Origin: Rubellimicrobium rubrum
GTDB lineage: Bacteria; Pseudomonadota; Alphaproteobacteria; Rhodobacterales; Rhodobacteraceae
Direction of reading: 5' to 3'
Assembly (NCBI RefSeq): GCF_006152115.1
Contig: NZ_VDFU01000001.1
Coordinates: forward strand, 248,001-312,000
DNA: 64,000 bases
This document shows positions 2,017 through 41,918 of this stretch, one piece after another. The notes under the pieces were generated by a model, which made no database searches, was not told the origin of the DNA, and worked only from the letters and a program-made list of their open reading frames with translations. How positions within the stretch are numbered: the first letter of the stretch is position 1; each line of letters opens with the position of its first letter. The position numbers were made by a program, and so were the translations under genes.

Positions 2017-3702
2017 TCAGTTCGCCTGACGGCGGAGGAAGGCCGGAATGTCCGCGCGTTCCTGCTCGGCATCGGGCTGGGCGTCGTAGGCCGGCCGGGG
2101 CTGGGCGCGCTGGGCGGCCGCGGCGCCACCTTCGGCACCGGGTTGGCCAGTCATGCGGTTGATAAGGGAGTTGATCCCGAACCGGGGCTTCTCGGGGGCT
2201 GGAGCCGGGCGCTGGGCCTGCGCCCCGCGCTGGGCGTCGGCCGACTGACGCGGATCGACACTGCCCCGCGCTTCGGCGGCACGGCTGGCCATGGCTCGCA
2301 GACGGGCCAACGCCTCGGGCGTGGGAGTGCCGGGGGCGGACGCGGCCGGGCGGGCCGTCTGCTGCGGCTCTGAGGCCGGACGATAGGCCGGGGGCGGCAG
2401 ATCGTCGGCGATCTGAGGCGCGTCATAGTCGTCCGTCATATCCGCCGGGTGGTCGTAGGACTGCGCGTCGTAATGCGACTGCTCAACCAGGGGCTCTTGG
2501 TAGGTCGGCGCAGGGGCCGGAGCGACGGAGCGTGCAGGCTGCACCATCGGCCGGGAAACCGGCGTGACCTGCGACGCCGCCGGACGCATGGCAGGCTGCG
2601 AGGCGGCTGAACGCATCGCCGGCTGTTGCGGCGCAGCAGCGGAGCGGTGGGCTGGCGCGGCGGCAGCGGCCTGGACCTCGTTGCGGCCGGGCTGGCTCAT
2701 GGAGCGCCGCGGCATCGGCGCATCCATGCGGTTCGCGTTGGCGTCGATCCCGGTCGCGACGACGGACACGCGCATCTTGCCGCCCATCTCGGTGTCGAGC
2801 GTGGAGCCCACGATGATGTTGGCGTCCTCATCGACCATCTCGCGAATCTTGTTCGCGGCCTCGTCCAGTTCGAACAGGGTCATGTCGTGACCGCCGGTGA
2901 TGTTGATCAGCACGCCCTTGGCGCCCTTGAGGCTGATCTCGTCGAGGAGCGGGTTCGCGATGGCCTTCTCGGCGGCGTGGGTGGCGCGATCGGGGCCTTC
3001 GGCCTCGCCGGTGCCCATCATGGCCTTGCCCATCTCGTCCATCACGGAGCGAACGTCCGCAAAATCGAGGTTGATGAGGCCCGGCTTGACCATCAGGTCC
3101 GTCACGCCCTTCACGCCCTGGTAGAGCACATCGTCGGCCAGCGCGAAGGCCTCGGTGAAGGTGGTGTTCTCGGTGGCGAGGCGGAACAGGTTCTGGTTCG
3201 GGATGACGATCAGCGTGTCCACGACCTTCTGAAGGGCCTCGACGCCCTCCTCGGCCTGGCGCATGCGCTTGGCGCCTTCGAACTGAAAGGGCTTGGTCAC
3301 GACGCCCACGGTCAGCACGCCGAGTTCACGGGCGGCCTGCGCGATGATCGGCGCGGCGCCCGTGCCAGTGCCGCCGCCCATGCCGGCCGTGATGAAGCAC
3401 ATATGGGCCCCGGCGAGGTGGTCCACTATCTGCTGGATCGATTCCTCAGCGGCAGCAGCGCCGACAGAGGGACGCGCGCCGGCGCCCAGCCCTTCGGTGA
3501 CCTTGATGCCCATCTGGATCTTGGCGGGCGCCTGCGCGCCCTTGAGGGCCTGCGCGTCGGTGTTGGCGACGACGAACTCGACCCCATCGAGTTGTTTTTC
3601 GATCATGTTGTTCACCGCGTTGCCGCCGGCGCCGCCGACGCCGAACACGGTGATCCGGGGCTTGAGGTCCTCCTGCCCGGGCAGGGAGAGATTGAGTGCC
3701 AT
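2017..3702 (-). CDS. ftsZ: cell division GTPase FtsZ with long C-terminal linker
   Basis: FtsZ is the tubulin-like GTPase that polymerises into the cytokinetic ring. The 561-aa product has the N-terminal GTPase fold ([17 protein letters not shown] near residue 17) and the tubulin signature MGGGTGTG at 108-115. The conserved globular core ends near residue 325. A Pro/Ala/Gln-rich linker of over 200 residues follows, containing short repeats of the type MR(S/P)AASQ. It ends in the conserved tail [11 protein letters not shown], the peptide that binds FtsA and other partners. Length exceeds the roughly 380 aa of E. coli FtsZ, as is common in alphaproteobacteria. A 215-bp gap separates it from ftsA, suggesting extra promoters of its own. 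Confidence 0.98.
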
Positions 3703-27970: not shown

Positions 27971-29074
27971 TCAGGCCATGCCGCCCTGGATGAGCCGCTG
28001 CGCAATCCCTCGCCAGGCTTCCGCCATCGACCCATCGCCCGCCGCGACCGGCACGCCCTCGTCGCCGGAGATGCGGGTCTGGAGGTCTATGGGAAGTCGC
28101 CCAAGGAATGGGATGCCGTCCTTCAGCGCCTCGGCCTCCACCCCACCATGCCCGAACACGTGGCTTTCGTGGCCGCAATTGGGACAGACGAAGGTGCTCA
28201 TGTTCTCGATCAGGCCCAGGATCGGCGTATGCAGCGTGCGGAACATGTCGATGGCTTTGCGGGCGTCGATCAGGGCCACATCCTGCGGCGTGGAGACCAC
28301 GATGGCCCCAGTCAGGTGCGTCCGCTGGCACAGCGTGAGCTGCACGTCACCTGTCCCCGGCGGCAGGTCCACGATCAGCACGTCGAGCTGCCCCCAGTTC
28401 ACCTGCGTGAGCAACTGCTGGAGCGCGCCCATCAGCATGGGACCCCGCCAGACGATCGCCTTGTCGGGATCCACCATCAGGCCGATCGACATCATGGTCA
28501 CGCCATGCGCGCGTAGCGGCTCGATGGTCTTGCCATCGGGCGAACCGGGGCGCTTGTTCACCCCCATCATGCGGGGCTGCGACGGCCCATAGATGTCTGC
28601 GTCCAAGAGGCCCACCCGACGCCCCTCACGGGCAAGCGCCACGGCCAGGTTCGAGGCGACCGTGGACTTTCCCACCCCGCCCTTGCCCGAGCCCACGGCG
28701 AGGATGCGGTCCACCCCCGTCACGCGCTGCGGACCGGCCTGCGGGGTGGGATGCCGGCCGATGGTCAGAGAGGGTGGCGCCGCCAATGGCGGGGCCGACG
28801 CTGGCGGGGCCGACGGGCGAGTCGCCGGGCCATGGGCGGTCACTACGATGGACACGCCGGTAACGCCGGGGAGCGCCCGGACCGCCACCTCGGCCGCCGC
28901 GCGGACCGGTTCCAGGGATCGCGCCTCCTCCGGGCTGGCGGCTTCGAGCACGAAACGCACCGTTCCCTCGGCGACGGCCAGGGCGCGGACGAAGCCGCTT
29001 TGGGCAAGATCGCCCCTTCCGGGAATCGCCACGCGCCCGAGCGCCGCCATCACCTCGTCCTTGGTCGGGGCCAT
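27971..29074 (-). CDS. apbC: Mrp/ApbC/NBP35-family iron-sulfur carrier ATPase
   Basis: A 367-aa P-loop ATPase that carries Fe-S clusters to target apoproteins in the cytosol. The N-terminal MIP18/DUF59-like domain (about 1-90) is followed by a Pro/Ala linker and the deviant Walker A motif GKGGVGKSTVASNLA near residue 132. The cluster-binding pair CPNCG lies near residue 295. DADIYGPSQPRMMG and DLPPGTGDVQLTL are family signatures. It is divergent from the DUF1127 gene and read toward the mraZ upstream region. Confidence 0.94.
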   Translation of the reverse strand: MAPTKDEVMAALGRVAIPGRGDLAQSGFVRALAVAEGTVRFVLEAASPEEARSLEPVRAAAEVAVRALPGVTGVSIVVTAHGPATRPSAPPASAPPLAAPPSLTIGRHPTPQAGPQRVTGVDRILAVGSGKGGVGKSTVASNLAVALAREGRRVGLLDADIYGPSQPRMMGVNKRPGSPDGKTIEPLRAHGVTMMSIGLMVDPDKAIVWRGPMLMGALQQLLTQVNWGQLDVLIVDLPPGTGDVQLTLCQRTHLTGAIVVSTPQDVALIDARKAIDMFRTLHTPILGLIENMSTFVCPNCGHESHVFGHGGVEAEALKDGIPFLGRLPIDLQTRISGDEGVPVAAGDGSMAEAWRGIAQRLIQGGMA

Positions 29075-29437
29075 CAGTCACACTCCTGTAGCATTTTTGC
29101 CGTACCCTGCCGGGTTGCTGTGAAGCGGCACCCTTGACGGGTCAAGGCGGTTTTCTTTCGCACCCCGCTCAATCGCCGTGCAATGACCCTCAATTGACGG
29201 CCTAGGCCCGGGCAGCAGGGGGACAGGACAGCCCGAGCTGTGCGGGCAGACCCCGCGCTCCGTGCTATTGCCCAGAAAAAGTCACATTTCATCATGCACT
29301 TGCTGCATAGCGGCATTGCGACGGTCCCACATTGTGCAGACGCAGCAATTAGCTATTTCTGCTCATGACAGCGCTAACGGCGCTTCCCTCCAAGGATCAG
29401 GGGATCCGGAGGATGATCGAACGAAAGAGACGATGAC
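29075..29437. other. divergent intergenic region between apbC and the DUF1127 gene
   Basis: A 363-bp region that must hold the apbC promoter (minus) and the DUF1127/small-RNA promoter (plus). In Rhodobacter sphaeroides the corresponding operon is driven by RpoH-type sigma factors; CTTG at 29300-29303 is a possible -35 core, but I cannot define a matching -10. Just before the DUF1127 start, a GGAGG-preceded ATG at 29413 opens a seven-codon frame (MIERKRR) ending at 29436. No other gene seen. Confidence 0.5.
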
Positions 29438-29659
29438 ATGGCCTACGCACACGACACCCGCCACGCCACTTCCGGTGTTTCGCTCGGGCAGCGCTTCAGC
29501 GATCTGCGCGTGGCGCTGGGCGAGCGGATCGGGCGGTATCGCCTGTACCGTGAAACGCTGGCCGAGTTGTCCACGCTCACCGATCGCGAGCTGAACGACT
29601 TGGGCCTGAGCAGCGCCGAGATCCGTGGCGTCGCGCACAAGGCGGCCTACGGCTTCTGA
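29438..29659 (+). CDS. DUF1127 small protein (CcaF1-like)
   Basis: A 73-aa basic protein ending in a DUF1127 domain: YRETLAELSTLTDRELNDLGLSSAEIRGVAHKAAYGF. DUF1127 proteins are short Arg-rich helical proteins. In Rhodobacter sphaeroides the member CcaF1, encoded directly upstream of the CcsR RNAs, binds RNA and affects RNA maturation and turnover; the same arrangement is seen here, with the first hairpin motif starting within 20 nt of the stop. The ribosome binding site is weak (AAGAGA about 8 nt upstream). A seven-codon upstream frame ends one base before the start codon. Probably stress-induced, by analogy. Confidence 0.85.
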   Translation: MAYAHDTRHATSGVSLGQRFSDLRVALGERIGRYRLYRETLAELSTLTDRELNDLGLSSAEIRGVAHKAAYGF

Positions 29660-29668
29660 GAGCATTCG

Positions 29669-29777
29669 CCAGGCCCGTTTCCTCCCTGGGTCCGGACACC
29701 TCCGCATGACAAGCCCCATCGCCCCGGGGCCTCTGCGCAGGATGCGGCGGGACCAACCTCCTCCCTGGTTCCGCCGC
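29669..29777 (+). ncRNA. CcsR/cuckoo-type small RNA 1
   Basis: Two stem-loops expose C-rich anti-Shine-Dalgarno-like loops. The first (29669-29695) is a bulged stem around TTTCCTCCCT. The second is strong: GCGGCGGGACCA (29744-29755) pairs with TGGTTCCGCCGC (29766-29777) around loop ACCTCCTCCC. CcsR (cuckoo) RNAs carry two such CCUCC-loop hairpins each. Exact 5' and 3' ends are not readable. Confidence 0.75.
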
Positions 29778-29784
29778 CGGTCTA

Positions 29785-29856
29785 CGCCGGTGCCCCTTCT
29801 CCTCCCTGGGGTCCGGTGTCTCGCGGCGGGGCCTTCCTCCTCCCTGGCTCCGCCGC
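29785..29856 (+). ncRNA. CcsR/cuckoo-type small RNA 2
   Basis: First hairpin: CGCCGG and CCCC (29785-29796) pair with GGGG and CCGGTG (29808-29818) around a loop with CTCCTCCC. Second hairpin: GCGGCGGGGCC (29823-29833) pairs with GGCTCCGCCGC (29846-29856) around loop TTCCTCCTCCCT. The second stem copies that of RNA 1, with compensating changes in the pairs near the loop. Confidence 0.8.
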
Positions 29857-29872
29857 ACGGGTTTGACGACTT

Positions 29873-29949
29873 CGCCGGTGCCCTCTCCTCCTCCCTGGGC
29901 AACGCGCGGAAATGCGGCGGGACCTCTCCTCCTCCCTGGTCCCGCCGCA
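29873..29949 (+). ncRNA. CcsR/cuckoo-type small RNA 3
   Basis: First hairpin: TGCCC (29879-29883) pairs with GGGCA (29897-29901) around a loop containing CCTCCTCCC. Second hairpin: TGCGGCGGGACC (29913-29924) pairs perfectly with GGTCCCGCCGCA (29938-29949) around loop TCTCCTCCTCCCT. Same two-hairpin plan as its neighbours. Confidence 0.8.
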
Positions 29950-29963
29950 CACTTCATCGGAAT

Positions 29964-30042
29964 GGCGGTCCTTTCCTCCTCCCTAGACAGCCCGTACCGG
30001 ACGGCGGCGACCCTCCTCCCAGAGTCGGCCGCCGTTTTTTTT
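29964..30042 (+). ncRNA. CcsR/cuckoo-type small RNA 4, ending in the array terminator
   Basis: First hairpin: GGC and GTC (29964-29970) pair with GAC and GCC (29986-29992) around a loop with CCTCCTCCC. Second hairpin: ACGGCGGCGAC (30001-30011) pairs with GTC and GCCGCCGT (30024-30035) around CCTCCTCCCAGA. The second hairpin is also the intrinsic terminator, being followed by eight T. Confidence 0.8.
30001..30042 (+). terminator. terminator of the DUF1127/small-RNA operon
   Basis: An 11-bp stem with one bulged G is followed directly by a run of eight T (30035-30042). Its loop carries the CCTCCTCCC motif, so the terminator is itself the last cuckoo hairpin. Confidence 0.9.
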
Positions 30043-30141
30043 GCGGTCACCCCCAACCAGCGTGGTCGGGCAGTGACCAACTTTCCCTTCCGACTCATCA
30101 CTCGACAGGCCATGGTCTCTGCGGGCAGCAAGGCGAGACTG

Positions 30142-31308
30142 ATGCGGGCATCTCTGGTTTCAGCGGCGCTGGTGGCAGCGCTGGTGGGCTTCGGCTCGAC
30201 CATTGCGCTCGTGCTCGCCGCGGCAGCGGCCGTGGACGCAACGCCCACGCAGACTGCGTCCTGGGTGCTCGCCGTGGCGCTGGCCAAGGCTGCGGGAAGC
30301 GCAGGCCTGTCCTTCTGGGCGCGCATGCCCGTGGTGCTGGCCTGGTCCACGCCCGGCGCGGCGCTGGTCGCGGCGACAAGCGGCCTGAGCATGGAACAGG
30401 CAGTCGGGGCCTTCGTCCTAGCCGGGCTGATGATCGCGACGCTTGGGCTAGTGCGGCCTTTGGGACGACTGGTGGCCCTGATCCCCGATGCGATCGCGGC
30501 TGGCATGCTGGCAGGCGTCCTCCTTCCGTTCTGCCTCAAGCTGGCTCCGGCGGCTGTCGAGGCACCGGCCCTGCTCGGACCCATGGTCGTGACCTTCGCG
30601 GTCGTGCGGCTTCGCAATCCGGCATGGGCCGTCTTGGCGGCGCTGGCCGTGGGTCTTGTCCTGGCCTTCGTGACCGGAGCCGCTCATGCGCCAGAGGTCG
30701 CAGGCCTGCCCGGCTTGGTGCTGGTGCGCCCGCATTTCGACGCGAACGTGGCCGTCGGCTTGGCGCTGCCGCTTGCTCTGGTCACCATGGCGTCGCAGAA
30801 CCTGCCGGGCTTTGCGACGCTGCGAGCTGCCGGATACGAGCCGCCGGTGAGCGCTGCATTGACCACGACGGGCCTGCTGTCGGCAGGCGCAGGGCTGTTC
30901 GGGGCCCATCCGATCAGCATGGCCGCGATTACGGCAGCGATTTGCCTGGGGGATGACGTGCACCCTGACCGGGCACGGCGATGGATGGTGGGGCTGGTTT
31001 ATGCGGCTGTCTGGGTCATCCTGGGCTTGGCCTCTCCGGTGGTGATCGGAGCCATCGCGGCGCTGCCACCGGCCTTGGTAGCCGGGATCGTGGGAATCGC
31101 GCTGCTGGGTCCTCTCACAGGGGCACTGGCCGGAGCCATGGGTCCGATGACGACCCGGACGCCAGCCGTGGTCACGCTGGCCGTGACGGCCTCGGGGGTG
31201 GCGGCATTCGGGATCGGCGCGGCGTTCTGGGGACTCGTGGCAGGTCTGGCCTTCCACGGAATCGACTCGGTCGCCATCAGGCGCGCTCGTCCTTCGGGCT
31301 CTCCATGA
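30142..31308 (+). CDS. BenE family transporter (benzoate/H+ symporter-like)
   Basis: A hydrophobic protein with 11-12 transmembrane helices and BenE-family sequence: start MRASLVSAALVAALVGFGSTIALVLAAA, FWARMPVVLAWSTPGAALVA, and MASQNLPGFATLRAAGYEPPVSAALTTTGLLS with GAHPISMAAITAAICLG, which are the conserved family segments. BenE proteins import benzoate or related acids with protons; the true substrate here is unknown. I prefer ATG 30142 (388 aa) because the family usually starts there; ATG 30112 is possible. It begins 100 bp after the small-RNA terminator, and its 3' end overlaps the convergent Lrp-type gene by 32 nt. Confidence 0.88.
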   Translation: MRASLVSAALVAALVGFGSTIALVLAAAAAVDATPTQTASWVLAVALAKAAGSAGLSFWARMPVVLAWSTPGAALVAATSGLSMEQAVGAFVLAGLMIATLGLVRPLGRLVALIPDAIAAGMLAGVLLPFCLKLAPAAVEAPALLGPMVVTFAVVRLRNPAWAVLAALAVGLVLAFVTGAAHAPEVAGLPGLVLVRPHFDANVAVGLALPLALVTMASQNLPGFATLRAAGYEPPVSAALTTTGLLSAGAGLFGAHPISMAAITAAICLGDDVHPDRARRWMVGLVYAAVWVILGLASPVVIGAIAALPPALVAGIVGIALLGPLTGALAGAMGPMTTRTPAVVTLAVTASGVAAFGIGAAFWGLVAGLAFHGIDSVAIRRARPSGSP

Positions 31309-41645: not shown

Positions 41646-41720
41646 GCGGGCGTAGCTCAGGGGTAGAGCATAACCTTGCCAAGGTTAGGGTCGTGAGTTC
41701 GAATCTCATCGCCCGCTCCA
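41646..41720 (+). tRNA. tRNA-Gly(GCC), copy 1
   Basis: A 75-nt cloverleaf with encoded CCA. Acceptor GCGGGCG pairs with CGCCCGC; D arm GCTC...GAGC; anticodon arm AACCTTGCCAAGGTT with anticodon GCC; T arm GTGAG TTCGAAT CTCAT; discriminator T. Copy 2 lies 123 bp downstream and is identical. Confidence 0.97.
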
Positions 41721-41843: not shown

Positions 41844-41918
41844 GCGGGCGTAGCTCAGGGGTAGAGCATAACCTTGCCAAGGTTAGGGTCGTGAGTTCGA
41901 ATCTCATCGCCCGCTCCA
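41844..41918 (+). tRNA. tRNA-Gly(GCC), copy 2
   Basis: Identical over all 75 nt to copy 1, including anticodon GCC and encoded CCA. The identity extends a few bases 5' (GGGCGG...). No obvious terminator follows before the convergent SMP-30 gene at 41953. Confidence 0.97.

Follow-up and report, generated by a model that had tools for sequence, protein, structure and literature searches.

A probable CIN1-type operon with a DUF1127 gene

The DUF1127 gene at positions 29438–29659 of the window (the whole stretch of 64,000 nucleotides analysed here, from a genome of 4.6 Mb) and the hairpins that follow it on the same strand very probably form an operon of the CIN1 type (ccaF1-CcsR, or cuckoo RNA, operon) with anti-Shine-Dalgarno (anti-SD) action. 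By its sequence, the locus is a member of this already published kind, and the Rfam cut-off is its sole sequence-testable misfit. The array is well conserved and ordinary in kind, and the part of the present account that goes beyond the known family is a proposed link between its promoter and a regulator. In Rhodobacter sphaeroides, ccaF1 and CcsR1-4 share one precursor transcript, made from an RpoHI/RpoHII promoter and cleaved by RNase E; CcaF1 assists the cleavage and so takes part in processing its own transcript. Short DUF1127 proteins beside CcsR-like RNAs are described as frequent in alphaproteobacteria, an arrangement named the CIN1 locus (PMC10253847). The flhR mRNA is a target of CcsR1-4, which also influence the glutathione pool (PMC8307010). 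By analogy, the operon would be expected to be transcribed in this organism, to be induced by stress and to be processed into four RNAs that pair with ribosome binding sites.

Anatomy of the locus

The gene lies on the + strand and encodes a CcaF1-like protein of 73 amino acids (Pfam PF06568, E 1.1e-12), which agrees with the preliminary description of a DUF1127 gene directly upstream of the hairpins and on their strand. Its closest named relative belongs to Rubellimicrobium roseum (64% identity), and it shares 44% identity with the CcaF1-like protein of locus L138, whose 71 residues equal the length reported for CcaF1. It is one of seven DUF1127 genes in the genome. A rule by which the gene would avoid a strong SD sequence of its own was rejected: a strong SD is absent here, but an SD-like tetramer occurs in 12 of 26 relatives.

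The divergent neighbour of the operon is mrp/apbC (27974–29074, − strand), coding for a P-loop Fe-S NTPase (PF10609, 1.8e-97; FeS_assembly_P), and in the sequence of L138 the same gene diverges from the CcaF1-like gene. Downstream lies a separate gene for a BenE-family benzoate transporter (30142–31308, + strand; PF03594, 3.9e-95), and a similar reading frame is also found 3′ of the array in the congener G001 (locus L032). In some congeners (L035, L036 and L058) another small ORF occupies this place after the array terminator; that of L035 contains a DUF1127-like stretch. Comparison of the locus with plasmids by BLASTN gave no match, and a search for an UpsM-like RNA near mraZ gave no Rfam match. 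At gathering cut-offs, the Rfam scan of the window returned two tRNAs and nothing else; these are two equal-scoring tRNA genes, at 41646–41717 and 41844–41915, 198 bases apart.

Frame of the hairpin array

Eight hairpins with a CCUCC(U)CC loop are packed into less than 400 nt between 29660 and 30042, at 29669–30035, in the number given by the preliminary description. In 1000 dinucleotide shuffles of 29660–30050, the mean is below two such hairpins, 999 shuffles contain between zero and five, one contains seven and none reaches eight. The summed hairpin energy is −180.6, against −81.7 for the best shuffled sum, and the minimum free energy of the array region has a z-score of −5.8. Elsewhere in the window, on both strands, 400-nt tiles clear of the array contain three such hairpins at most.

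The preliminary description had divided the eight hairpins into four RNAs of two hairpins each. Alignment with R. roseum and the congeners G001, G002, G003 and G006 leads to a different frame of nine hairpins, with one solitary hairpin proximal to the stop codon and four pairs, the first hairpin of one pair having a degenerate loop. Hairpin 1 (29669–29695), identified by the hairpin scan and the genus alignment, carries UUUCCUCCCU in its loop, starts 10 nt 3′ of the DUF1127 stop codon and has no partner in the comparative frame. Between hairpins 1 and 2, which are 77 nt apart, lies the degenerate ninth hairpin (29713–29730; GCCCC-AUCGCCCC-GGGGC). Genus comparison identifies it as the first hairpin of unit 1, with the stem kept and the CCUCC loop lost; at the same position R. 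roseum, G001, G003 and G006 have a CCUCC hairpin. The same loop is lost and the same stem kept in the congener G002 (L034), a common loss that may be shared or selected. Model R1, a covariance model of the genus units, pairs hairpins 1 and 2 around a long insert (29664–29779, 41.6 bits), and the Rfam CcsR1 model pairs the degenerate hairpin with hairpin 2 (29698–29782, 35.9 bits). On this comparative reading, the first RNA should be counted from the degenerate hairpin, with hairpin 1 as an extra element and not the partner of hairpin 2. The number of four RNAs thus stands and the pairing of hairpins 1 and 2 does not, since unit 1 starts with the degenerate hairpin.

All the remaining hairpins lie on the + strand. 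Unit 1 is completed by hairpin 2 (29744–29777), which has a GCGGCGGGACC stem. In unit 2, the variable stem of hairpin 3 (29785–29818) is followed by the GCGGCGGGGCC stem of hairpin 4 (29823–29856); model R1 covers them at 29782–29858 with 76.5 bits, a score obtained with unit 2 in the training set. Unit 3 consists of hairpin 5 (29871–29910), with a variable stem, and hairpin 6 (29913–29949), again with the GCGGCGGGACC stem, both within a CcsR1 match at 29868–29953. In unit 4, hairpin 7 (29964–29992) has a weak stem here and a stronger one in R. roseum. Hairpin 8 (30001–30035), lying within an ar14 match at 29908–30040, doubles as the GC-rich stem of an intrinsic terminator, and the T8 next to it ends at about 30041. 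Alternation between a variable and a GCGGCGG-type stem, as previously noted, holds for hairpins 2 to 8. Against the CIN1 reading stand the weakness of hairpins 1 and 7 and the loss of one motif loop.

Covariance models and conservation in the family

The preliminary description had proposed a covariance-model search. The Rfam model CcsR1 (RF02791) matches unit 3 with 54.9 bits (E 1.2e-12; gathering score 65.3), and ar14 (RF02344) matches hairpins 6–8 with 47.5 bits (E 1.5e-7; gathering score 58.8); both matches are significant, and neither attains the gathering score. A stand-alone three-hairpin ar14 sRNA above that score was not found at the locus, where the match forms part of a more extended array in a 3′ UTR. 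At E ≤ 1e-4, CcsR1 matches 116 of 149 genomes of the family (Rhodobacteraceae) and none of 14 control genomes. Because so many genomes match yet only eight of the 149 pass the gathering score, the sub-threshold score says more about the Rfam cut-off than about the locus.

Among 80 named loci collected through the DUF1127 protein, 45 have an array behind the gene (at least two hairpins in a row, and up to 12), mostly starting 14–27 nt past the stop codon; upstream and reverse-strand controls give about 0–2 hairpins in nearly all of these 45 loci. Model R1, built from 12 genus units and used with a reporting threshold of E ≤ 0.01, finds 109 units in 59 loci, every one on the coding (+) strand. 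In L138 (genome G058), where CcsR1 scores 106 bits, the array consists of near-identical tandem units, which looks like recent duplication or concerted evolution. In L122 (Tropicimonas), CcsR-type units form two separate groups (1599–2204 and 3151–3224), which suggests two arrays close together in one genome.

Compensatory changes in the stems, claimed earlier from the copies within the array, are borne out at both scales of comparison. In the genus alignment, which was made without structure although the structure was predicted from the same sequences, 12 pairs have changed on both sides; none of 500 shuffles reaches 12, and slid controls give at most four. Among 104 distinct family units, all 17 modelled pairs show two-sided changes and 97% of the cells pair; covariation is 0.657 in this alignment, which was fitted to the structure, against 0.231 when shuffled, and none of 500 shuffles comes near. 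The loop motif is conserved as well as the stems. The earlier assignment to the CcsR/cuckoo RNAs is therefore upheld by the CcsR1 and ar14 matches, the DUF1127 gene, the divergent mrp/apbC, the U-tract terminator, the family-wide conservation and the covariation.

Proposed function and candidate targets

In the proposed mechanism, a single promoter would give rise to the 73-residue DUF1127 protein together with a 3′ UTR of CCUCC-loop hairpins closed by the intrinsic terminator. Cleavage of the 3′ UTR, for which Rhodobacter uses RNase E assisted by the DUF1127 protein, would then yield about four RNAs of two hairpins each. Their loops would base-pair with GGAGG(AGG) in ribosome binding sites and so reduce the translation of some mRNAs. 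This is comparable to NfeR1, an ar14 RNA whose redundant anti-SD loops mediate the silencing of mRNAs (PMC7143759, PMC10746234). The pattern GGGAGGAGG-N3-9-ATG occurs at 13 sites in the genome, against two for the reversed pattern. Seven of the 13 precede credible genes, coding for TRAP and ABC solute-binding proteins, a LacI regulator, a NuoK/MnhC-like subunit, a glyoxalase-superfamily protein, a cytochrome c and S-(hydroxymethyl)glutathione synthase; some of the others, before very short ORFs, are probably due to chance. The genes behind the seven sites are candidate targets. The last of them encodes an enzyme of C1 metabolism that depends on glutathione, which agrees with the C1 role of CcsR.

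Two other readings of the hairpins have to be weighed against release of anti-SD RNAs. The array is GC-rich and repetitive, as would be a tandem repeat that contains pyrimidine motifs by chance and does not function as RNA, but the shuffle test, the two-sided covariation, the confinement of matches to one strand and the conservation across the family make such an origin extremely improbable. It is also conceivable, if very unlikely, that the hairpins act mainly in cis, either by protecting or terminating the DUF1127 mRNA or as an autoregulatory platform for the DUF1127 protein, and are not released to act in trans. The short distance from the stop codon to the array (no more than about 20 nt) and the terminator at the array's end would fit, as would the participation of Rhodobacter CcaF1 in processing its own transcript (PMC10253847). 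However, the same genome has stand-alone three-hairpin copies without a DUF1127 gene, the loop motif is conserved and not the stems alone, and in Rhodobacter CcsR1-4 are set free as separate RNAs that act on targets in trans (PMC10253847, PMC8307010). The reading as a source of trans-acting anti-SD RNAs is thus preferred.

The stand-alone copies are three three-hairpin loci without DUF1127, on contigs C5, C6 and C47 (L026, L029 and L030; around 1457–1590 in locus positions). All three match ar14, and one of them also matches CcsR1. Those on C6 and C47 hardly differ from each other, even in the promoter.

Promoter boxes

Upstream of the DUF1127 gene, two boxes and a putative −10 element can be recognized on the + strand. 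Box A (29332–29347; TTGTGCAGACGCAGCA), which includes a possible −35 element TTGTGC, has the pattern TTGTGCANNNGCAGCA, found exactly in 37 of the 45 array promoters and in one of 35 loci without an array, on a contig that ends at the gene. In most relatives box A fits TGCA-N6-GCAT, the form described for the LsrB site of nfeR1 (PMC10746234); in the window the last T is changed to A. The putative −10 element (29353–29358; CTATTT) occupies, when compared by eye, the position of a C(C/T)AT(C/G)TT conserved in relatives, and its sequence departs from this common form. In this genome the extended form TTGTGCANNNGCAGCA occurs exactly five times without mismatch: at the window operon, at the three stand-alone arrays and at a second DUF1127 gene without an array. 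Across the whole genome, exact copies precede only DUF1127 genes or cuckoo RNAs, and they stand out because, once as many as two mismatches are allowed, the pattern is found no more often than its reversed control. The second DUF1127 gene (L170; genome G000, C25:286171) has the same two promoter boxes and no hairpin array behind it.

The reverse complement of box B (29304–29318; TGCATAGCGGCATTG) is the published Brucella VtlR box CAATGCAGCCATGCA (PMC12595884) with two bases different. In most array promoters a second box, TGCATRGC[AG]GCATTG, lies 27–28 nt upstream of box A, and the VtlR box is its reverse complement up to one or two bases. Counting matches with no more than two mismatches, the VtlR box is present in 27 of 45 array promoters versus one of 632 control tiles. 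A good second box was not found at two of the three stand-alone loci, C6 and C47 (five mismatches).

A possible LsrB/VtlR-type regulator

In Brucella, three DUF1127 genes and the sRNA AbcR2 are under activation by VtlR, and in Agrobacterium a small-protein gene orthologous to the Brucella VtlR targets is activated together with sRNAs (PMC12595884, PMC7486931). The genome contains 27 LysR-type matches. For one of these proteins (L244/L269), forward comparison with solved structures gives A. tumefaciens LsrB (PDB 9HH1) as the best relative, with 238 bits against 100 bits for the next. Homologues at E ≤ 1e-60 occur in 145 of the 149 family genomes, one per genome; that of G058, which also carries locus L138, is 77% identical. 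Since the regulator is present nearly everywhere, its pattern of presence and absence is uninformative on a link with the array. LsrB has been described as restricted to Rhizobiales (PMC11975290); the present comparison suggests that LsrB-type regulators extend beyond this order. The L244 gene lies beside reading frames resembling murI and purL instead of trxB, and no cysteine is found in the translated protein, so that the thiol switch of Agrobacterium cannot be assumed. Two other LysR-type genes were rejected as LsrB candidates: L251, located beside another DUF1127 gene, is LrhA-like, and L242 is OxyR-like.

From these sequence comparisons, control of the window operon by an LsrB/VtlR-type regulator appears plausible, with roughly an even chance of being correct. 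Its promoter would probably be a stress-type promoter under a LysR regulator of this type, and the same regulator would serve the three stand-alone ar14-like RNAs and the second DUF1127 gene. The boxes could instead be read by PhaR, the PHB-sensing repressor, which would couple the array to carbon storage. The phaP, phaR and phaZ-phaC promoters of this genome have TGC-rich boxes similar to boxes A and B, TGC-rich regions are recognized by Paracoccus and Rhodobacter PhaR (PMC10888616), and repression by AniA/PhaR is reported for MmgR, an sRNA of S. meliloti (PMC12542648). However, the extended TTGTGCANNNGCAGCA form is confined to DUF1127 or cuckoo loci, box B fits an independently published VtlR box far above the control, and it is VtlR that activates DUF1127 genes and sRNAs in relatives (PMC12595884, PMC7486931), which leaves PhaR a rather unlikely regulator of the array. 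On the preferred LsrB/VtlR reading, the ccaF1-CcsR operons of Rhodobacteraceae, the stand-alone cuckoo RNAs and further DUF1127 genes might form one regulon of a near-universal LysR activator, a proposal for and against which the chances are about equal.

Relation to known systems

The closest known system is CcsR1-4/CcaF1 (RSP_6037) of R. sphaeroides (RF02791), with which the locus shares a DUF1127 gene of about 70 codons, a 3′ UTR array of two-hairpin CCUCC-loop units, four in number, and a terminator; the divergent mrp gene is common to the window locus and the CcaF1-like locus L138. The window differs from CcsR1-4 by an extra stop-proximal hairpin, the loss of one motif loop, different stem sequences and a score below the Rfam cut-off. 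With ar14/NfeR1 of Sinorhizobium (RF02344) it shares repeated hairpins, variable stems and anti-SD loops, but NfeR1 is a separate sRNA that has a sigma-70 promoter to itself, whereas the array is a 3′ UTR. As in the VtlR/LsrB regulon of Brucella, Agrobacterium and Sinorhizobium, a near-identical operator precedes DUF1127 genes and anti-SD-type sRNAs and an LsrB-type regulator is present; here, however, the operator is a predicted one, and the regulator gene lies away from trxB and encodes a protein without cysteines.

The array extends the known family, most of which is missed by the Rfam cut-off (of the 116 genomes with a match, eight pass). Through its promoter boxes and the LsrB-type protein, the Rhodobacter CcsR system can be connected in a concrete and testable way with the VtlR/LsrB-DUF1127-sRNA circuits known from rhizobia and Brucella; the cited literature treats the two separately. 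If this link is true, the cysteine-free regulator of this genome would need a signal other than thiol oxidation.
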